Source: an uncultured Paracoccaceae bacterium (GTDB taxonomy: Bacteria > Pseudomonadota > Alphaproteobacteria > Rhodobacterales > Rhodobacteraceae). From it: DNA of 64,000 nucleotides. The translations under genes and the position numbers were made by a program. A model generated the notes under the pieces. The model worked only from the letters and a program-made list of their open reading frames with translations. It was not told the origin of the DNA and did no database searches. Within the stretch, counting starts at the first letter, position 1. Each line of letters starts with the position of its first letter. The stretch spans positions 1 through 64,000 of the forward strand of contig CAJJBH010000022.1 of NCBI GenBank assembly GCA_905182355.1, given 5' to 3'. Shown here piece after piece: positions 28,959 through 51,526 of this stretch.

Positions 28959-29789
28959 ATGTTAGCATTTGCACTTTTGGGATTACTTGGAATCGGATTG
29001 CTTGTTGATCTTGTCGCTGATGATGAAGACGTTCAGGAAACATCTGATGTGAATACGCTAGTTTCGGAATCTGGAACCACACTTGGTGATGAACGAGTAG
29101 ATGATGTCGCAGGTGGCGATGGTGGCGATGGTGGCGATGGTGGCGATGGTGGCGATGGTGAAAACAGCATATTTGGTAAAGGTGGCAATGATTTCCTGAC
29201 TGGCGGTGCTGGCGATGATCGCCTCTTCGGTGGAGATGACGATGATCATTTACTTGGTGAGAGTGGTGATGACTTTATTCGGGGTGGTGCCGATGATGAC
29301 ACTCTCTGGGGAGGCGAAGGTGCCGATACATTAATCGGAGACACCGGAAATGATATTATCTATGGAATGGACCTCCTTGACGAGGATGCATTCATCGAAA
29401 GTTCTCGTTTTGGGCCTGCAAGTTTCATTCCTTTTGATTTCGGTAAAGATACAGCAGAGGCAGACACCTTGTCTGGTGGTGCGGGCAACGACGTCTTATT
29501 TGTGGGTGCCAACGATATAGCCAACACCGGAAACGGCAGCGATATCGTTTCAACCGGCCTTTGGATGAAAGCAGGTGAATCAGCCACCATAACCGACTTC
29601 AAACAAGGCACTGATCTCCTCGCGTACAACTATGATGAATCTGACTCCGAACCAACTATTAGCTTTACCGAAAATCAGGACAACGATGCACAGCTTCGTA
29701 TCAACGATGACGTTGTTCTTGTCCTGAGAGGCGTGGATTTCAGGACCCTTTCTGAGTCTGATGTACGCCTATTTCCCAACAAAGTTTAA
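28959..29789 (+). CDS. Membrane-anchored RTX-type calcium-binding protein
   Basis: The 276-residue product starts with a hydrophobic helix (MLAFALLGLLGIGLLVDLV). An acidic stretch and five in-frame 9-base repeats encoding Gly-Gly-Asp follow (about 52-66). Then come several RTX nonapeptides (about 70-130: FGKGGNDFLTGGAGDDRLFGGDDDD..., ending WGGEGADTLIGDTGNDIIYG) and another at 168-177. The rest is a compact C-terminal domain (ATITDFKQGTDLLAYNYDESDS). RTX turns fold on binding calcium outside the cell. A type I secretion signal is not evident, since the N-terminal helix suggests anchoring. I recognise the architecture from other roseobacters but know no function. It has a paralogue next door. 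Confidence 0.75.
   Translation: MLAFALLGLLGIGLLVDLVADDEDVQETSDVNTLVSESGTTLGDERVDDVAGGDGGDGGDGGDGGDGENSIFGKGGNDFLTGGAGDDRLFGGDDDDHLLGESGDDFIRGGADDDTLWGGEGADTLIGDTGNDIIYGMDLLDEDAFIESSRFGPASFIPFDFGKDTAEADTLSGGAGNDVLFVGANDIANTGNGSDIVSTGLWMKAGESATITDFKQGTDLLAYNYDESDSEPTISFTENQDNDAQLRINDDVVLVLRGVDFRTLSESDVRLFPNKV
29113..29160 (+). repeat. Tandem 9-bp repeat inside an RTX gene
   Basis: GGTGGCGAT is repeated five times head to tail, encoding (Gly-Gly-Asp)5. Unit gain or loss would keep the frame, so this tract can vary linker or calcium-site length without breaking the protein. Confidence 0.85.
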
Positions 29790-29899
29790 GCGACTGTAGC
29801 CTTGATCAAACCCAATCCTGGGCTTTTCAACTCACTGTTGCAAGGGCTGCCACAATTTAGCCACATTGCTTGACGGGCGTATTTAGATGCCAATACATG

Positions 29900-29914
29900 T
29901 TAGAAAATAGTTAA
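29900..29914 (+). promoter_or_regulatory. CtrA-like box upstream of the second RTX gene
   Basis: TTAG-AAAATAG-TTAA differs by one base from the CtrA consensus TTAA-N7-TTAA. It lies 18 bases before the gene start at 29932. CtrA control of surface and motility genes is known in Rhodobacterales; this site is a candidate only. Confidence 0.3.
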
Positions 29915-29931
29915 TTTGAAGGGGCACTGCC

Positions 29932-30955
29932 ATGCTTTACATACTAATTTTTCTTTTACCCTCATTGGTCATTGGTTACGGAATTTATGAACTGGTCAAT
30001 TACGACAACGGTGATGATGGCAATACCGATCAAACACTGGCTGGCACGGATGGAAGCGACCTTTTAAGCGGCGCACAAGGAAATGACATGATCAGCGGAG
30101 CGGCCGGCAATGATAGTATTGCTGGCGGGTCAGGCAACGACACTCTTTCTGGTGATGAAGGGGACGCCTTCATCGAAGGGGAACGTGGCAACGATCTAAT
30201 TGACGGTGGCGCTGACCAGGATTACGTTACCTGCGGCGGCAGCGATGATGTTCTTTTGGGCCAAGGCGGAAATGACACCTTACTGGGTGGCGACGGCAAC
30301 GACATTGTTGTGGGTGGTCAAAACGATGACACACTAACAGGTTTCTGGTGGCAAGGACTGGGTCGAGGGCAGCCAAGGCGACGATTCAGTTTCTGGCTGG
30401 TTTGGCTTTGACACTCTTATTGGCGGCGAAGGCGAGGATACCTTACGCGGCGGAAATGGGGGTGACCTTTTGTTTGGCGGCATTATTGAAGGTACACCGA
30501 CTGACCCAAAGTTGCTTAGTCAACTGCGCGATGGCAGCTCATTGGCCCAGATTATAAACGTAGGAGCTGTTTCCAGTGTAACCTTGGTGGATGATGGTGA
30601 TGCGGACATTTTGTCTGGCGGTGACAGAAACGACACCTTGTTCCTTGGTGCGGGCGACATTGGTGCAGGTGATGAAGGTAACGATACATTTGCCATACTC
30701 GCGGCCCAAGCAACCAACCCTACACAAGATTTCGCACTGATCAGGGATTACTCAAGTACTGATGATGCAATCGCGGTTGTTGTTCAAGACGGCTCTACCC
30801 CGATCATTACAGTAACGGCGGATAGTACCGATTCAATAATATCTATCGGCGAGACTGTGCTTGCCCACGTTACAGGTGCAGGGTCAACCTTGACCGCAGC
30901 CGATGTGACGATCATTTCTTCACCTACCGTTGGAGTGCTTGATCCGAATACATAA
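29932..30955 (+). pseudogene. Membrane-anchored RTX-type protein, split by a one-base frameshift
   Basis: The 5' frame encodes an N-terminal membrane helix (MLYILIFLLPSLVIGYGIYELV) and RTX repeats (LLSGAQGNDMISGAAGNDSIAGG and further units) up to TLTG. At 30342-30344 a TTT run breaks the frame. Dropping one T restores TLTGSGGKDWVEG and continues through more RTX units (FGFDTLIGGEGEDTLRGG) to a C-terminal domain ending at 30955. A one-base correction gives 340 residues, collinear with the neighbour at 28959. As written the product stops at 30411 (159 residues). This is either a real mutation or a sequencing error. GAAGGGGC lies before the ATG. Confidence 0.75.
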
Positions 30956-32145: not shown

Positions 32146-32610
32146 TCATTCCTTGGAATTGCTACCTAAAATTTCGCGCAAGCGGGTTTCTTCGGCGTCA
32201 CTTAGGGCATCATTGCCCGGCTCATTGGCCGACGATCTGCCGCGCAAGTAGATGAATCCCATCCCTGCGGCCAACAACAACATCAGCGGACCAGCCCCCC
32301 ACAACAGCAACGTCGACCCACTTGCCCGTGGTTGCAGCAGCACATATTCACCGTACCGTTCCACTATGAAATCTACAGTTTGGTCATCACTGTCACCCGA
32401 AATCAGACGTTCGCGCACCAGAATACGCAAATCACGCGCCAGTGACGCATGGCTTTCATCGATGCTTTCATTCTGACACACCAAGCACCGTAGGCCTTTG
32501 GATATGTCACGTGCGCGGGCCTCAAGCACGGGGTCAGCCAGAATTTCATCTGGCTCAACCGCCCAAAGCGGCGATGCAATTAACATCAGGATAAAAACAA
32601 GGTGTTTCAT
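32146..32610 (-). CDS. ccmH: Cytochrome c maturation protein CcmH (CycL)
   Basis: The 154-residue protein has a signal peptide (MKHLVFILMLIASPLWA), the thiol-redox motif LRCLVCQN with Cys42 and Cys45, and one membrane helix (about 100-122). CcmH keeps the apocytochrome CXXCH cysteines reduced for heme attachment, working with CcmF in the periplasm. It is the short form, without a fused CcmI domain. It overlaps ccmF by four bases (ATGA). Confidence 0.93.
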   Translation of the reverse strand: MKHLVFILMLIASPLWAVEPDEILADPVLEARARDISKGLRCLVCQNESIDESHASLARDLRILVRERLISGDSDDQTVDFIVERYGEYVLLQPRASGSTLLLWGAGPLMLLLAAGMGFIYLRGRSSANEPGNDALSDAEETRLREILGSNSKE

Positions 32611-34592
32611 TCTGCAGGCACCGGTTGTGCGTTCGATTTACGTGCGCCCGCAGCCACGCGGAAACGGCGATCCGACAGGCTGAAACAGCCCCCCAACGCC
32701 ATAAGCAGACAACCGATCCAAATCCAACTGGTCAATGGCTTAACATAAACACGCACTGCCCAGCCGCCGGCATCTTGTTCGTCGCCAATCACCACATAAA
32801 CGTCACGCGCAAGATTGGCGTTAATCGCAGCCTCGGTTGTTGGCATTTGCGCCACTGGATAAATCCGCTTTTCTGGGCGCATTTCAGACAGAACAGTTCC
32901 ATCACGAGACAATGTAATGTCCGCAATTGTCGCCAGGTAATTTGGCCCCTCTTCGTCTGCGACCCCGTTCAATGCAATGGTATAGGCCCCCACATCATAA
33001 GGCTGACCAACTTGTGCAACCCGAATATCCTCATAGGCCCAAGACGTAATCCCAGCGACACCCAGCATCGTGATCCCAAGCCCAGAATGGGCAAGCAATT
33101 TACCCCAATCCGCACGTGGCAGACGCATCATGCGGCCGAAACGGTTTGCGCCACGCCCTGTCCGCGACATCAAATCGATAACAGCACCCATGACAATCCA
33201 AGCCGCCAAAAACACGCCTATTGGACCCAGAACAGAACGGCCCGTTTGCATCGCCCAAACCAGCCCAGCAATTGCCAAAGCCAATACAAAGGCATAGCGC
33301 AGCGGATACATCGCCGTTTTGATCTGCGCACGTTTCCAAGGCAGCATCGCACCAACAGGTAAAACAAGCCCTAAGACCAACATAAACGGCGTGAATGCCA
33401 TGTTAAAAAACGGCGGGCCAACTGACAGTTTGCGATCAAAGAACATCTCGGCCACCAGTGGCCACATTGTGCCTACAAAGACCACAAAACAACTGACGGC
33501 CAATAGAATATTATTGGTCAGCAATGCACCTTCACGGCTGACCAAACCAAAGACACCTTTGGCCTCCATCGTCCCTGCCCGCACCGCGAACAAGATCAAC
33601 GCACCACCGGTAAAGAACCCAAGGATCATCAGGATAAACACGCCACGTTCAGGATCATTTGCGAACGCATGAACCGACGTCAACAGGCCTGAGCGCACGA
33701 TAAACGTGCCGATCAAGGAAAAGCCAAACGCCAAAATCGCCAGTAAGATCGTCCACGATTTCAGACTTTCACGCTTTTCGACCACAATGGCTGAATGCAG
33801 CAATGCAGCGGCCAATAACCACGGCATAAACGACGCGTTTTCAACTGGATCCCAGAACCAAAAACCACCCCAGCCAAGTTCATAATAGGCCCACCACGAT
33901 CCAAGCGCGATGCCGATGGTCAGGAATATCCACGCGGCCAATGTCCACGGACGCACCCAGCGGCCCCACGCAGCATCAACACGCCCCTCAAGCAACGCCG
34001 CCACGGCAAAGCTGAACGTCATGCTTAGGCCCACATATCCCAAATACAAAAACGGCGGATGAAATGCCAAACCGGGGTCTTGCAACAACGGGTTCAGATC
34101 TTGCCCATCAAAGGGTGGCACAGCAAGACGTGTAAACGGATTGGACGTGAATAAAATAAACGCAAAAAACGCGACACCAATTGCCGCTTGAACAGCCAGT
34201 ACACGCGCCCGCAAACTTGGTGGCAGGTTGGTGCCAAACCACGCAGCCATCGCGCCAAACAGGGACACAATCAGCACCCAAAGCAGCATAGACCCTTCGT
34301 GGTTGCCCCATGTTCCGCTAATTTTATACAGCATCGGTTTGGCTGAATGGCTGTTCTGGACAACAAGCAACAGACTGAAATCAGACGATATAAATGCCCA
34401 CATCAATGCACCAAAGGCAAACGCTGTTAGCATGAATTGGGCAGACGCCGCAGGTTCTGCCACAGACATCCACGACCGCCATCCCTTATGCGCCCCAATC
34501 AGCGGTACAAAGGTTTGCACAATCGCGACCAAAAAGGCCAAGATCAGGGCAAAATGTCCAAGTTCAGTGATCATCCGTGACGCATCCATCAA
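32607..34592 (-). CDS. ccmF: Cytochrome c heme lyase subunit CcmF
   Basis: CcmF is the large membrane subunit that ligates heme to apocytochrome c. The 661-residue protein has about 15 helices. The tryptophan-rich heme-handling signature is WWAYYELGWGGFWFWDPVENASFMPWL (about 233-259), and conserved His occur in LYKISGTWGNHEGSMLLW (about 88-105). It lies 66 bases after the holin gene and overlaps ccmH. ccmE lies upstream on the same strand, separated only by the lysis pair. Confidence 0.95.
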   Translation of the reverse strand: MMDASRMITELGHFALILAFLVAIVQTFVPLIGAHKGWRSWMSVAEPAASAQFMLTAFAFGALMWAFISSDFSLLLVVQNSHSAKPMLYKISGTWGNHEGSMLLWVLIVSLFGAMAAWFGTNLPPSLRARVLAVQAAIGVAFFAFILFTSNPFTRLAVPPFDGQDLNPLLQDPGLAFHPPFLYLGYVGLSMTFSFAVAALLEGRVDAAWGRWVRPWTLAAWIFLTIGIALGSWWAYYELGWGGFWFWDPVENASFMPWLLAAALLHSAIVVEKRESLKSWTILLAILAFGFSLIGTFIVRSGLLTSVHAFANDPERGVFILMILGFFTGGALILFAVRAGTMEAKGVFGLVSREGALLTNNILLAVSCFVVFVGTMWPLVAEMFFDRKLSVGPPFFNMAFTPFMLVLGLVLPVGAMLPWKRAQIKTAMYPLRYAFVLALAIAGLVWAMQTGRSVLGPIGVFLAAWIVMGAVIDLMSRTGRGANRFGRMMRLPRADWGKLLAHSGLGITMLGVAGITSWAYEDIRVAQVGQPYDVGAYTIALNGVADEEGPNYLATIADITLSRDGTVLSEMRPEKRIYPVAQMPTTEAAINANLARDVYVVIGDEQDAGGWAVRVYVKPLTSWIWIGCLLMALGGCFSLSDRRFRVAAGARKSNAQPVPAE

Positions 34593-34658
34593 TAAGGCTT
34601 GGACAGACTATAGTGCCTGCCCCAAACCACGCCAATCATATTCGCGCCTCAGCTGGCT

Positions 34659-35243
34659 TCACATTGTCGCGGGGTAGGCTGTTGTTTTGCGCCAAGCCTC
34701 TAAAGCTGCATTCGCGTCAGGCAAAAGCGAGGCACTGGCAAGTCGCACATCAGATCCGGCATCCGCGACACCAACACTTGCCGCGCGTAATGCGCGCAGC
34801 GCCTTAATGTTGCTCATTACTTGGGGAACATGCGCCATTGTACCTACAATTTCACGCTGGAACTGCTGGCTTTTTACTTGATGACGCGCGCCGAAATAGA
34901 ACGATACAATCACCCCCAGCAACCACCACATAGGTTCAGGCACCAGTGCAATGCCTTGCATACGTTGGGAAAACCACAGCGGATCAACCATCGCGGCGAT
35001 AAACATCCCCAACGTGCCAAGGGCCAATGCGGGTCGTGGCACACGGTTCAACCCATCCATAAACCGATCAAACGCGCCCTGACGCGGCGCGGCGAATTCC
35101 GCGCCGTATTGGGTCATCGCCTGCATTTGAACCTGCGCCCCGCGCTTTGATCCCGCTTCCGCATTCTCGCGAAACACTTCGACCGTATCGCGCAGCACGT
35201 TATTGCCGCCGCCAAATATCATTTGAAACATCCGTTCAATCAT
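34659..35243 (-). CDS. Holin family protein (3-TM type)
   Basis: The ATG at 35243 overlaps the endolysin stop as ATGA; an ATG two codons earlier is also possible. The 194-residue protein has an amphipathic N-terminus, two clear hydrophobic helices (about 75-90, ALALGTLGMFIAAMVDPLWF, and 108-120, WWLLGVIVSFYFGARH), and a long cytoplasmic C-terminal segment. It resembles the 3TM holin family found in phages and gene transfer agents. Holins release the endolysin across the inner membrane. Position beside a GH108-type muramidase supports the call. Confidence 0.75.
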   Translation of the reverse strand: MIERMFQMIFGGGNNVLRDTVEVFRENAEAGSKRGAQVQMQAMTQYGAEFAAPRQGAFDRFMDGLNRVPRPALALGTLGMFIAAMVDPLWFSQRMQGIALVPEPMWWLLGVIVSFYFGARHQVKSQQFQREIVGTMAHVPQVMSNIKALRALRAASVGVADAGSDVRLASASLLPDANAALEAWRKTTAYPATM

Positions 35244-35850
35244 GCCCATGATGCGACCCTTTTTTGAAATTCTGATTGGTTCATATGATACTTAGGTGCC
35301 ATAAATTCCTCGGCCCGCCGTATCCATCCGCCCTTTTGGCCCGCACGGGTGCACGCATAATTGCAGCTGGCTGGGCGGCGATCTGCAATGCGCAGATAAT
35401 AGTTGCGCCGCGCAATACCGCAAGCGTCCACCAGATATCCATTGGCCTGCTTACTTGCAGCACCCACAGCATCCAGTGACTGCGGCCCCAATGCACCGTC
35501 AACAGACACCTCAAACCCCATATCCCACAGCAATCGCTGTAAAATCTTGATCGCGTTGCACCCTGCATTCACGTACATGTCGAAGACCGTGGCATGCAAG
35601 GGTTCCGGAAAATGTGCAATCAATGGCGCATCGAAATAGTGTTTGATAAAGATATCGACGGCTTGCGTTTGGGTTAACGCGCGCACCTCAAATGCATCCA
35701 CATCCCCGTCGCAATCCAAATCCAGACCAAGGCGGCGCATGGTGTGAATGGTGACGCCAAAATTGGTGCCCCCCCGGGATCATCAGGATCATTCACATAG
35801 CCACCTTCACGGTGCACAATTTCTTGGGCTATCTTTTCCACTGTTTGCAT
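35240..35850 (-). pseudogene. GH108-type endolysin (N-acetylmuramidase) with a frameshift
   Basis: A well-placed ribosome site (GAGGAG) precedes ATG 35850. The product starts MQTVEKIAQEIVHREGGYVNDPDDPG, with the catalytic Glu15 of the GH108 EGGY motif. A run of seven C on the plus strand (35769-35775, seven G in the gene) then throws the frame. One extra base restores TNFGVTIHTMRRLGLDLD and the rest, including the peptidoglycan-binding domain, giving 203 residues. The distal part alone could begin at ATG 35740, but it would lack the active site. The cause is either homopolymer slippage or sequencing error. It precedes the holin gene and follows ccmE. Confidence 0.75.
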
Positions 35851-35889
35851 CACCTACTCCTCACGCCAATTTAGACGTGGGTCAGATGA

Positions 35890-35904
35890 TCAATAAATGG
35901 TTAA
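35890..35904 (-). promoter_or_regulatory. CtrA-like box upstream of the lysis cassette
   Basis: Read on the minus strand, TTAA-CCATTTA-TTGA differs by one base from TTAA-N7-TTAA and includes the CtrA half-site TTAACCAT. It ends 40 bases before the endolysin start, between ccmE and the endolysin, and suggests the lysis genes have their own promoter. In Rhodobacter capsulatus, gene transfer agent production and release depend on CtrA. Confidence 0.45.
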
Positions 35905-35926
35905 TTTGTGGTAGGTGTAGCGTACG

Positions 35927-36373
35927 CTAGCTGCCCTCAGGCTCCACATAGACACCCTGCGCTTTCAAAGCGTCAATGACCTCAGTTGGCATGTAAGTTT
36001 CATCATGTTTGGCAAGAATTTCAGTCGCTTCAAAGACACCGTTGATGTAACGACCCGTGGCAACTGTGCCTTGACCCTCTTCAAACAAGTCAGGGCGTAT
36101 TCCAGTATAGCTGACCGGAATAGTTGCGCCGCCATCCGTGACAGCAAAGGTGATGCTTTCGCCTTGGCCAATGACCAAACTGCCGTCGGCAACCAGCCCA
36201 CCAATCCGAAACACTTCCTTTGGACCGGGCGGTGTTTCGGCCACTTGGCTGGGTGAACGGAAAAAATTGATGCCATCTTGTAGCGCGTAACCGATCAAAA
36301 CCGTGGACAATGTCAAAGCCACAGCCATAACCGCAATCACTTGTATACGGCGTTGTTTTTTAAGCGATTTCAT
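35927..36373 (-). CDS. ccmE: Cytochrome c maturation heme chaperone CcmE
   Basis: CcmE carries heme covalently in the periplasm before CcmF takes it. The 148-residue protein starts at ATG 36373. It has a membrane anchor (about 9-30), an OB-fold (FRIGGLVADGSLV, about 55-67) and the heme-binding His123 in LAKHDETYMP, with Tyr127. It begins 16 bases after argC, and the lysis pair follows it, splitting it from ccmF. Confidence 0.95.
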   Translation of the reverse strand: MKSLKKQRRIQVIAVMAVALTLSTVLIGYALQDGINFFRSPSQVAETPPGPKEVFRIGGLVADGSLVIGQGESITFAVTDGGATIPVSYTGIRPDLFEEGQGTVATGRYINGVFEATEILAKHDETYMPTEVIDALKAQGVYVEPEGS

Positions 36374-36388
36374 CAATTACTCCAAACG

Positions 36389-37417
36389 TTACGGGAACAG
36401 CGGTGCCATCATCAAACCTGTTGTCTCAAGAATACCTAACATCAGATTGGCATTTTGCAACGCCTGCCCACTGCTGCCTTTGGTCAAATTATCAAGTGCA
36501 GCGATCACAATTGCGCGTCCGTCGATGCGGTCAGCAACCACACCGATGTGACAAAAGTTCGATCCACGAATGTGGCGTGTGCTTGGGACCTCGCCCATTG
36601 ACAGCAGTTCGATGAAGGGTTCATCCGCATAAGCAACTGCAAGCGTGTCATAAATAACCTGCGCATCACCCTTCACATAGGTCGTAGCCAGAATGCCGCG
36701 ATTGGCTGGAACCAAATGCGGCGTAAACTGCACTTTAACGTCACGACCCGCGACTGCGCTGAATTCCTGGTCAAACTCGCCCAAGTGACGATGCGTGCCG
36801 CCAACAGCATAGGCATGATAACCCTCTGACAGTTCAGCATGCAGAAGGTTCTCTTTCAGCGCACGACCCGCGCCAGAAACGGCACATTTCAGGTCCAATA
36901 TGATCTCGTCCAGATCAATCACACCTGCTGCAATCAAAGGGCGCAGCGCAAATTGGCCCGTGGCCGCATTGCAGCCTGTGCCAGCCACCAAACGGGCCAC
37001 TTTGATCTGTTCACGGTAAAATTCGCTTAGGCCATAGACCGCTTCACCTTGCATTTCCAAAGCGGCGTGTGGATTGCCATACCACGCTTCGTATGCTTCA
37101 GGATCGCGCAGACGGAAATCAGCGCTCAGATCAACAATCTTCAACGTTTTGGGTAGCCCGCTAATAACTTCTTGGCTGGTCTTGTGCGGCAGCGCACAAA
37201 AACACAAATCGATGCCAGTCCATTCAATTTCATCGAACTTCACCATGTCAGGCAGGTCCAGATGGCGCAGATGCGGAAACACTGACGCAAGTGATTTTCC
37301 AGCTTTAGAAAACGCCCCCAAGGCTTTTATTTCCATTGTAGGATGTTCAGAAATTAGGCGGATCAGTTCAGCGCCCGTGTAGCCACTGGCACCCAAGATT
37401 GCGATATTATAGGTCAT
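36389..37417 (-). CDS. argC: N-acetyl-gamma-glutamyl-phosphate reductase
   Basis: ArgC makes N-acetylglutamate semialdehyde in arginine synthesis. The start is ATG 37417 ([18 protein letters not shown], the NADP-binding glycine loop); an in-frame ATG at 37516 would run into murI. The 342-residue protein has the catalytic Cys149 in [13 protein letters not shown] and the C-terminal [10 protein letters not shown]. This is the long-type ArgC. It follows murI by 28 bases on the same strand. Confidence 0.95.
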
Positions 37418-46766: not shown

Positions 46767-47747
46767 ATGGCTAACGAGACCCTTCAAGTTTATAACTTTG
46801 CCAGTGGTGACAATACCTATCCTCACTCTGGCAACTTTACGATTGGCGTCGCTGGTTCGATCAGCGTCGACGATTCTGACGGGTTCGATGATGCAATATT
46901 TGGGGATCTCACCCACACGGGTGGCGCAGACACCGCCGATCAAAATGTAACGGCATCGTCAGTTGCAGGGATTAATGTCACTGATACCGTGGATTTGCGT
47001 TATAAATACACTTTCACGGGATCTGACGGTTCAAGTGGTACGATCTACTTCGTCGCGACCAATGATACAGCAAACTATGGTCCTTTGTTCATGTCGGACA
47101 CCCCACTTACACCGAGTGTCACATACACTTTTGGGGCCTTCAACACGGATGGGGCTGTCGCGTATTCATCGTTGGTTCCTTGTTTCACAAGTGGCACATC
47201 AATCGTAACCGCCAAAGGACACAAGTTCGTCGAAAGCCTTCAAGAGGGGGACATGATCCTTACACGTGACAACGGGTATCAGCCTGTGCGCTGGATTGGC
47301 CGTTGCACAAAGCCTGCACTAGGCAAATCAACCCCGATTCATATCGCAAAAGATGTTTTAGGGAACACAACTGAACTGTTGGTATCTCCCAATCACCGCA
47401 TGCTGGTGGTGGAAGCTGCAGCAGATTTATATTTTGGTGAACGCGAACTGCTGATCTGCGCAAAACACCTGCTGGGCATGGACGGTATCAACCGTAAAAA
47501 TGGTGGTTTTGTGACCTATGTTCACATCTTATTTGACGAACATCAGATTGTTATTTCCAACGGTGCATTCAGCGAAAGCTTTTTTCCCGGTCCAATGGCA
47601 CTAAACACGCTGGAAGATAAAACCCGTCAAGAAGTGTTGGACCTGTTCCCCGAACTGGCATTCAATATAAATGGCGATGTTCTGCAAACAGCTCGTATGT
47701 GCCTGAACAAGCGCGAAGCTGGTTTTTTGCAGCGCCTCGCAGCTTAA
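46767..47747 (+). CDS. Hint-domain (hedgehog/intein-type) protein
   Basis: The 326-residue product (start ATG 46767; a GTG 12 bases upstream is less likely) has no signal peptide. A beta-rich acidic N-terminal region (about 1-135) contains Asp/Gly-rich turns. A Hint domain starts at Cys139 (PCFTSGTSIVTAKG) and continues with LQEGDMILTRDNGYQPVRWIGR and the conserved SPNHRMLVV block (about 209-217). Hint domains self-cleave at the Cys. In roseobacters they end large surface or secreted proteins, often exported by type I systems. Here the passenger is short. Function unknown. Confidence 0.8.
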   Translation: MANETLQVYNFASGDNTYPHSGNFTIGVAGSISVDDSDGFDDAIFGDLTHTGGADTADQNVTASSVAGINVTDTVDLRYKYTFTGSDGSSGTIYFVATNDTANYGPLFMSDTPLTPSVTYTFGAFNTDGAVAYSSLVPCFTSGTSIVTAKGHKFVESLQEGDMILTRDNGYQPVRWIGRCTKPALGKSTPIHIAKDVLGNTTELLVSPNHRMLVVEAAADLYFGERELLICAKHLLGMDGINRKNGGFVTYVHILFDEHQIVISNGAFSESFFPGPMALNTLEDKTRQEVLDLFPELAFNINGDVLQTARMCLNKREAGFLQRLAA

Positions 47748-47758
47748 CCAACAGTTAA
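47744..47758. promoter_or_regulatory. Exact CtrA-box match (TTAA-N7-TTAA)
   Basis: TTAACCAACAGTTAA matches the full CtrA consensus and contains the TTAACC half-site. It overlaps the Hint stop codon and lies about 300 bases before purL. A further TTAACC occurs near 47774. Confidence 0.4.
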
Positions 47759-50310: not shown

Positions 50311-51526
50311 CACCCACATCGTCGGGGCGAGATATGGCTAGTGCCAACTCTTCTAATGATGCGATTGAATGCCCTGCCCGAAAGCTGTCGACATAGGGCA
50401 GCATTGCTTTGATACCCTGCGCCTTTGGGGCAAATTCGTCCCAACGCAGCAGTGGATTCAGCCAGATCAACCGCTTCGCACTTAGGTGTAACCGCTGCAT
50501 TTGTTTGGCCAAAACATCGGTATCTGCACGTTCTAGCCCGTCGGTGATCAGCAAGACAACTGCGCCTTGCCCCATGACCCGTCGCGACCAATCGTGATTG
50601 AAGGTTTGCAGACATTCGCCAATACGTGTGCCCCCTTCCCAATCCTGAGCTTCGGCCCCAGCAGCAGCAAGAGCTACATCAACATCGCGTTGTTTTAGGT
50701 GACGGGTGATATTCGTCAAACGCGTTCCAAACGTAAAGGCATGAACCCGCGCCCACCCAGCGCCTTTTTCGTTGCTAACGGCGTGTAAGAAATGCAAGAC
50801 AGCGCGCGAATACTGGCTCATTGACCCTGAAATGTCGCATAAAACTACCAGATTGGGCCAGCGGGGGCGCTGTGTTTTATGAATGATTTTGTGTATTTCG
50901 CCCCCATTGCGCATAGCGCCGCGTAGGGTCTTGGCAGCGTCAACCCGCCCACGGGTCGACAATTTTGTACGGCGTGAGAGCATTGGTTCAACGGGCAGTT
51001 TAATACGTGCCAGCATCCGCTTTGCTATTGCCATTTCAGCCGTGCTCATCTGTTCGAAATCAAGGGTACGCAACCGTTCGTGGGTGCTGATGGTGAACGA
51101 GGCATCGATATCGATCTCGGTGCCTTCTTCCTCTTCGATACTGCTGCCTTCGATCCCTGCCCCATCCAATAAAGCCTCAGCCGCGCGTTTCTCAGCTGCT
51201 TGAGCTGCGCGCTCTTCCTGGACCCCACTGATCGCTGGCAACATTGCTGCCATCATATGTTCAAGATATTGTGGGTCGCGCCAATACAACCTGAAGATTT
51301 GCGCATAGACTGTTCTGTGTTCAGGTCGATTCACAAAACACGCATGTAGCGTCCAATAAAAGTCTGCTTTGTTACTAAAACCAGCCGCCTCAACAGCACG
51401 TATTGCGTCGATGACGCGACCTGAGCCAATGGGCAAACCAGCGCGGCGTAATGCTCGTGCAAAGTGGGTGATGTTGCCTGCTAATTTTGGGTTTTCAGGC
51501 AATTCTAGTGGTATGTGTTTTATCAT
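50270..51526 (-). CDS. VWA domain-containing CoxE-like protein
   Basis: The 418-residue protein has a CoxE-like VWA domain (about 220-400). Its metal-ion site is DISGSMS (Asp231-Ser235), with the Thr of EGGTRIGE and the Asp of LITDGLERADTD. The N-terminal half is helical with an acidic insert (IEGSSIEEEEGTEIDID). CoxE-type proteins work with MoxR AAA+ ATPases to assemble or activate metalloenzymes. The moxR-like gene lies just upstream on the same strand, which fits. Its client is not apparent, as no CO dehydrogenase genes are present. Confidence 0.88.
   Translation of the reverse strand: MIKHIPLELPENPKLAGNITHFARALRRAGLPIGSGRVIDAIRAVEAAGFSNKADFYWTLHACFVNRPEHRTVYAQIFRLYWRDPQYLEHMMAAMLPAISGVQEERAAQAAEKRAAEALLDGAGIEGSSIEEEEGTEIDIDASFTISTHERLRTLDFEQMSTAEMAIAKRMLARIKLPVEPMLSRRTKLSTRGRVDAAKTLRGAMRNGGEIHKIIHKTQRPRWPNLVVLCDISGSMSQYSRAVLHFLHAVSNEKGAGWARVHAFTFGTRLTNITRHLKQRDVDVALAAAGAEAQDWEGGTRIGECLQTFNHDWSRRVMGQGAVVLLITDGLERADTDVLAKQMQRLHLSAKRLIWLNPLLRWDEFAPKAQGIKAMLPYVDSFRAGHSIASLEELALAISRPDDVGEKSRLMRGLTDQA

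Follow-up and report, generated by a model that had tools for sequence, protein, structure and literature searches.

The window analysed here is a stretch of 64,000 nucleotides from an uncultured marine Paracoccaceae bacterium, and four genes on its minus strand follow one another in the order ccmE, endolysin, holin, ccmF. The upstream neighbour of the lysis genes is ccmE (35927-36376; Pfam CcmE, 5.2e-30) and the downstream neighbour is ccmF (32607-34592; Pfam CcmF_C, 2.5e-115). The holin is an intact open reading frame of 196 amino acids (34659-35249) that matches Pfam GTA_holin_3TM (E=2.8e-28). The preliminary description of this DNA had placed a holin/endolysin pair between ccmE and ccmF; the pair and its place are as described, but the endolysin is not one open frame, a break that had gone unnoticed. 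From the start codon at 35850, the N-terminal 26 codons (35773-35850, the start of a GH108 domain) match positions 1-23 of the NCBIfam family NF040573, holin-associated N-acetylmuramidase. The remainder (35240-35773; GH108 and PG_binding_3) matches positions 24-200 in another frame, and the match is full-length once both frames are combined. The frame shifts at a run of seven Gs, 35769-35775 (minus strand). The domain make-up (Pfam PF05838 and PF09374) is that of the family, but the frame is broken in the window's genome, whereas both parts are fused in a single frame among named relatives and the frame is full-length in 16 of 16 genomes examined.

As the preliminary description stated, there are no other phage genes nearby: when 10 neighbouring proteins were compared with PHROGs, nine had no match and the tenth matched a family of unknown function. 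The gap between holin and ccmF holds a weak sigma-70-like promoter candidate (34607-34635, minus strand; consensus match only, 9/12), which would allow ccmF to be expressed without the lysis genes. Elsewhere in the window, translations inspected by eye have GGxGxD-type repeats at 28959-30955, resembling calcium-binding-repeat proteins; one of these is seemingly split over two frames (29932-30411 and 30470-30955).

An endolysin with GH108 and peptidoglycan-binding parts adjoins a 3-TM GTA holin, which identifies the pair as the lysis module, endolysin ahead of holin, of a gene transfer agent (GTA) of the RcGTA type. Like rcc00555/rcc00556 of Rhodobacter capsulatus and Dshi_1756/1757 of Dinoroseobacter shibae, as these are presented in the accessible parts of PMC9638019, PMC6363796 and PMC6473078, it lies apart from the head-tail cluster. 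It differs from the RcGTA lysis genes in that its endolysin is frameshifted and the GTA of its genome is decaying, as described below.

The place of the pair is shared across the family. A contig scan for the holin yielded 45 named Rhodobacteraceae loci; ccmE and ccmF both flank the lysis pair in 36 of these and at least one of them does so in 43, counts in which some contigs end too early to show both flanks. With one locus per genus, 105 of 110 family loci have ccmE or ccmF next to the pair and 109 of 110 have the holin beside the endolysin, although this set (the best-scoring endolysin loci, 16 genomes and further loci with coordinates) is biased to good matches. The loci of seven named members of the genus, including Ascidiaceihabitans sp. 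ANT-1, are identical to those of other genus genomes. Judging from these comparisons, the position between ccmE and ccmF is the ancestral place of the module, a family-wide arrangement and not a stray insertion; to call the pair 'lodged' in the ccm operon, as had been done, is misleading. We did not find this place of GTA lysis genes described in the open-licence literature, and the multilocus paper Hynes 2016 may describe it. A separate point concerns ccmE itself. The accessible part of PMC9765227 names it as one of 14 families with a codon bias tracking that of GTA genes, and accounts for the pattern by stress expression; in Rhodobacteraceae, the position of ccmE beside the GTA lysis genes could be a further reason.

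Upstream of the endolysin, 39 nt before the ATG, lies the CtrA-like box TTAA-N7-TTGA (TTAACCATTTATTGA; 35890-35904, minus strand) that the preliminary description had pointed out. The box is present, but it does not hold up as a whole. It lacks the second half-site of a CtrA promoter, TTAA-N7-TTAA(C), and three occurrences of the pattern TTAA-N7-TTRA were counted in the window where chance predicts 3.4, so that the box alone is no evidence. As TTAA-N7-TTRA recurs in just one of 44 relatives, we rejected the idea that the signal is the full CtrA box. Conservation is limited to its first half, TTAACC (35899-35904). Between -75 and -31 relative to the start, TTAAC is present in 33 of the 44 named loci (1.8 expected), in 19 of the 30 top family loci (0.8 expected) and in 14 of 16 GTA_TIM-negative genomes (0.56 expected). 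This conservation agrees with published statements, as far as the accessible text of the sources goes, that the rcc00555/6 promoter contains putative CtrA half-sites (PMC9638019), that the lysis promoter is bound by GafA and that full endolysin induction needs CtrA (PMC6363796). A putative CtrA half-site is a feature that the window has in common with the RcGTA lysis genes, which are also GafA targets. Because the half-site is conserved far beyond chance, the suggestion that the module has its own promoter is plausible. Against this, the hexamer found 17 nt downstream of TTAACC, CCCACG, makes a poor -10 element. Elsewhere, at 47744-47758, a CtrA-type site that forms a perfect palindrome (TTAACCAACAGTTAA) was seen on both strands.

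Between the box and the ATG, the endolysin leader can form a hairpin (35849-35890, minus strand) that the preliminary description had also missed. Its 5' arm is at 35874-35890, its loop at 35868-35873 and its 3' arm at 35849-35867. The hairpin covers the start codon and the Shine-Dalgarno sequence GAGGAG (35857-35862), which lies in the 3' arm. Over 45 nt, the window leader folds with -19.5 kcal/mol (dinucleotide z -4.42); when it was folded from 35870, with the 5' arm removed, the structure was lost (z +0.75). The calculated accessibility of the Shine-Dalgarno sequence rises moderately on truncation, from 0.27 to 0.49.

The hairpin is conserved among endolysin leaders. Over 155 loci, a set that contains some loci twice under two names, these leaders had a mean dinucleotide z of -2.28 and 53% were below -2. 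The control starts of holin, ccmE and ccmF had means of 0.13, -0.17 and -0.18, with 3, 7 and 9% below -2. When one leader per genus was scored with mononucleotide shuffles, mean z was -2.11 for 83 GTA-bearing and -2.63 for 21 GTA-less leaders, and 44 other gene starts of the window's own genome, scored with the same kind of shuffle, had a mean of -0.10 with 4 of 44 below -2. The Shine-Dalgarno sequence is paired upstream, in silico, in 93 of 111 endolysin leaders versus 47/109, 43/89 and 24/80 at the control starts. Pairing of the AUG was not commoner than at the controls (53/111 versus 50/109).

The two arms of the hairpin also change together. An MAFFT alignment of the 111 leaders contained too many gaps for counting pairs, and we therefore used an alignment-free swap test and a gapless alignment within the genus. 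In the swap test, a leader's own arms paired better (-16.0) than arms exchanged between genera (-12.2; n=109, p=1.6e-11); the same test was not significant at the three control starts (p=0.3, 0.87 and 0.12). In the genus alignment of 8 sequences, 6 of them distinct, 87.5% of cells were paired, compared with 27-56% for slid structures, and 7 cells had changed on both sides versus 2.2 in shuffles.

The hairpin is stronger in the 125 loci with ccmE at most 400 nt upstream (88 below -1.5, mean z -2.62) than in the loci where no ccmE was found (mean z -1.03, 9 of 27 below -1.5), whose start codons are less sure. The p value for this difference, 8e-5, was obtained with two distant-ccmE loci pooled with the 27 and one locus of unclear context omitted. 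Among the ccmE-adjacent loci, 37 of 125 have only a weak hairpin (z >= -1.5). A tree-paired test of the hairpin against ccmE adjacency or GTA loss had no power. Rfam gave no match at E<=1 in 34400-36500, and we found no description in the open-licence literature of a hairpin that buries the ribosome-binding site of GTA lysis genes. For the RcGTA lysis genes, the accessible parts of PMC9638019, PMC6363796 and PMC6473078 mention neither such a hairpin nor the ccmE-ccmF place. The motif CAGnCT recurs in the 5' arm across genera (leader consensus) and may represent the anti-Shine-Dalgarno strand or belong to the promoter. A minus-strand gene start near 51526 has a leader hairpin that is also very strong (z -4.8, -22.5 kcal/mol).

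The hairpin lies 60-170 nt after ccmE, the position expected of a terminator, and it could be mainly a terminator of the ccmE transcript that overlaps the endolysin ribosome site by chance. A T-run does occur between hairpin and ATG in 3 of the 155 loci, but the other 152 have no T-run of at least four, and scanning the window for terminators gives none at the hairpin. Moreover, the half-site is upstream of the hairpin, so the module's own transcript would also be cut unless it started inside the hairpin. An ordinary intrinsic terminator was rejected because the T-run is so rare, and we consider it unlikely that termination is the main role of this structure.

We favour a role of the hairpin in translation, and the geometry of the leader bears on how such a role might work. 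Where ccmE-linked loci have both TTAAC and a clear hairpin (77 loci), the half-site is 32 nt from the loop centre with a median absolute deviation of 1.5, compared with 3.0-3.8 when partners are shuffled (p<0.001). When the set is reduced to one locus for each genus and the window (50 loci), the spacing differs from the median by at most 3 nt in 42. If TTAAC is a -35 element, transcription is predicted to start 36 nt after TTAAC, which in the window would be position 35868 (minus strand). On this assumption, the predicted start is past the 5' arm in 77 of the 77 loci, about 16 nt before the ATG.

Based on these observations, we propose the following model for the control of the lysis module. 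An mRNA that reads through from ccmE would carry the whole hairpin, and the endolysin on it would not be translated. This silence would mean that no lysis occurs while cells make cytochromes. When CtrA and GafA fire the module's own promoter, transcription would start at or beyond the loop. The short mRNA would lack the 5' arm, the ribosome site would be free, and endolysin and holin would be made. The block on read-through and the translation of the own-promoter mRNA are what we infer from the fold and the spacing; the identity of the genes, their place, the TTAAC element, the conserved hairpin over the ribosome site with its co-varying arms and the fixed spacing can be read directly from the loci compared.

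A similar arrangement is known from T4 gene e. According to the accessible part of PMC3014915, long gene e transcripts fold the ribosome site away, and short late-promoter transcripts lack the 5' arm. Both are lysis genes (lysozyme in T4) with the ribosome site buried in a hairpin on long transcripts, by prediction here, and the predicted start would remove the 5' arm. The endolysin leaders have two features of gene e-type control: the arms show compensatory change, in the swap test and in pair counts from six distinct sequences, and the Shine-Dalgarno sequence is paired, in silico, in the long transcript. The systems differ in that the upstream transcript here belongs to a host operon for cytochrome c maturation and not to an early phage transcript. 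In addition, the promoter here would be of the CtrA/GafA type, with a predicted start site.

If the pair is a GTA lysis module, a head-tail cluster may be expected elsewhere in the genome, and the search for one that had been recommended was successful. A head-tail cluster of the RcGTA type is present on contig C41 (18.2-33.5 kb; GTA_TIM/g15 match and open reading frames). The best matches of its capsid and portal among solved structures are Rcc01687 (2.6e-161, from residue 43 on) and Rcc01684 (4.9e-192), respectively. This cluster is damaged. When genes were compared with the open reading frames of two relatives' genomes, G187 and G301, 5 of 12 head-tail genes were broken versus 3 of 60 others, endolysin excluded (p=0.002). 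The large terminase has one shift, a gp11-like gene (named from its place) has one shift, and g15 has two shifts and three stops. The capsid has a stop at reference codon 43, with which the start of its structural match at residue 43 fits as a lost N-terminus, and the protease has a stop at codon 25. The capsid and protease stops depend on the choice of start; when they are excluded, the counts are 3/12 versus 3/60 (p=0.054). A gafA-like DUF6456 gene (contig C18:93963-94369) also has a frameshift and an upstream in-frame stop compared with G187.

Amino-acid changes point in the same direction. With G187 as outgroup, private changes in the window strain and in G301 number 21:10 in the endolysin (p=0.06 alone) and 71:44 in four GTA genes. 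The combined ratio of 92:54 differs from 258:320 in 22 control genes (p=9e-5), and also from the 230:235 that remains without two control genes below 70% identity (p=0.004). We read this excess as a sign of relaxed selection on a dying GTA and not as the product of read errors alone. Of 12 genomes in the genus, many of them incomplete, all 12 carry the holin and five carry the GTA capsid (p=0.005). Together, these comparisons suggest that the GTA of the window's strain is probably dead or dying.

It is possible that the frameshifts are errors of sequencing or assembly and that the GTA is intact. The endolysin break is at a homopolymer and the draft genome has 100 contigs and is 87% complete, so some of the lesions could be of this kind. 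However, there are in-frame stops besides the shifts, GTA genes are broken far more often than controls, and an excess of private amino-acid changes is not expected from indel errors. As an explanation of all the damage, error seems to us unlikely. A more doubtful alternative is that the strain has a working release module, activated through the full CtrA box, as was originally proposed. The head-tail cluster, the box and the holin are there, and the notion of a detached GTA lysis module has stood up. Working release has not: endolysin, large terminase, g15, gp11-like and gafA-like genes are shifted or stopped, the capsid has lost its N-terminus, and one of the 44 relatives shares the second half of the box. 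Given the lesions in the endolysin, in several genes of the head-tail cluster and in the gafA-like activator, a working release module is improbable in this strain. We therefore keep to the reading of a lysis module in a genome whose GTA is decaying.

The endolysin is above the cut-off in 249 of 295 family genomes. It is kept in 222 of 247 GTA-bearing genomes and in 27 of 48 GTA-less genomes (p=1.7e-7), where GTA-less was assigned by hand and means that the portal is absent or has E>1e-40 and GTA_TIM is absent or has E>1e-60; the GTA-bearing count includes 11 genomes that have a strong GTA_TIM match and no portal. These counts suggest that the endolysin belongs with the GTA, yet often outlasts it. 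GTA_TIM alone was dropped as a marker because all genomes with only a weak match (1e-36 to 1e-59) had no portal or a mere trace of one, and portal and GTA_TIM were then both required. In 15 family genomes (for example, G070, G055 and G241) the weak GTA_TIM matches are uniform, 1e-36 to 1e-41, with the portal absent or a trace; they are possibly a shared remnant or another protein.

Direct tests identified ten genomes without portal, capsid and GTA_TIM, and all ten keep the endolysin and a gafA-like gene. One of these is represented by Tateyamaria sp. Alg231-49 (identical locus), in whose genus 17 of 20 genomes have the capsid, so the GTA was lost there recently. Genomes that retain the endolysin without a GTA usually also have the half-site, the hairpin and the gafA-like gene, where checked. 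The endolysin tree requires at least 16 changes of GTA status. A test for relaxed constraint after GTA loss, which had weak power and, after removal of six ambiguous genomes, covered rows with at least two host genes, did not detect it for the endolysin (one-sided p=0.10; 60 versus 19 genomes) or the holin (p=0.65; 60 versus 18 genomes). The persistence of the endolysin without particles may reflect a lag or an independent role.

A prophage remnant unrelated to the GTA, although endolysin and holin are phage-type functions, is very improbable and we rejected it, since no phage genes flank the pair, its place is fixed across the family, the lysis genes track the GTA cluster, and among 50,697 phage records the holin has no match and the endolysin only three (~31% identity). 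The closest homologues of both genes are not in phages, but are chromosomal Rhodobacteraceae genes at the same place.

In sum, we think it fairly probable that the window holds a GTA lysis module at its ancestral ccm place, locked by a hairpin against read-through and translated from the mRNA of its own promoter, in a genome where the GTA is decaying. The module is ordinary in identity; the proposed translational lock and the module's capture during decay are the new aspects. For the family as a whole we suggest, more tentatively and with somewhat less than even confidence, that a promoter-in-hairpin switch guards the lysis module within the essential ccm operon, and that the module outlives the particle genes as a stand-alone, CtrA/GafA-controlled device for programmed lysis.

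Prior work on how the lethal lysis genes of a GTA are kept silent in cells that do not produce particles considers transcription, in the parts accessible to us. A conserved hairpin at a fixed distance from the half-site would offer a second lock, at the level of translation. If this is true, the control of GTA lysis would be convergent with that of T4 lysozyme. The decay seen here, together with lysis genes that persist without particles elsewhere in the family, provides a way to ask which part of the GTA is under selection.
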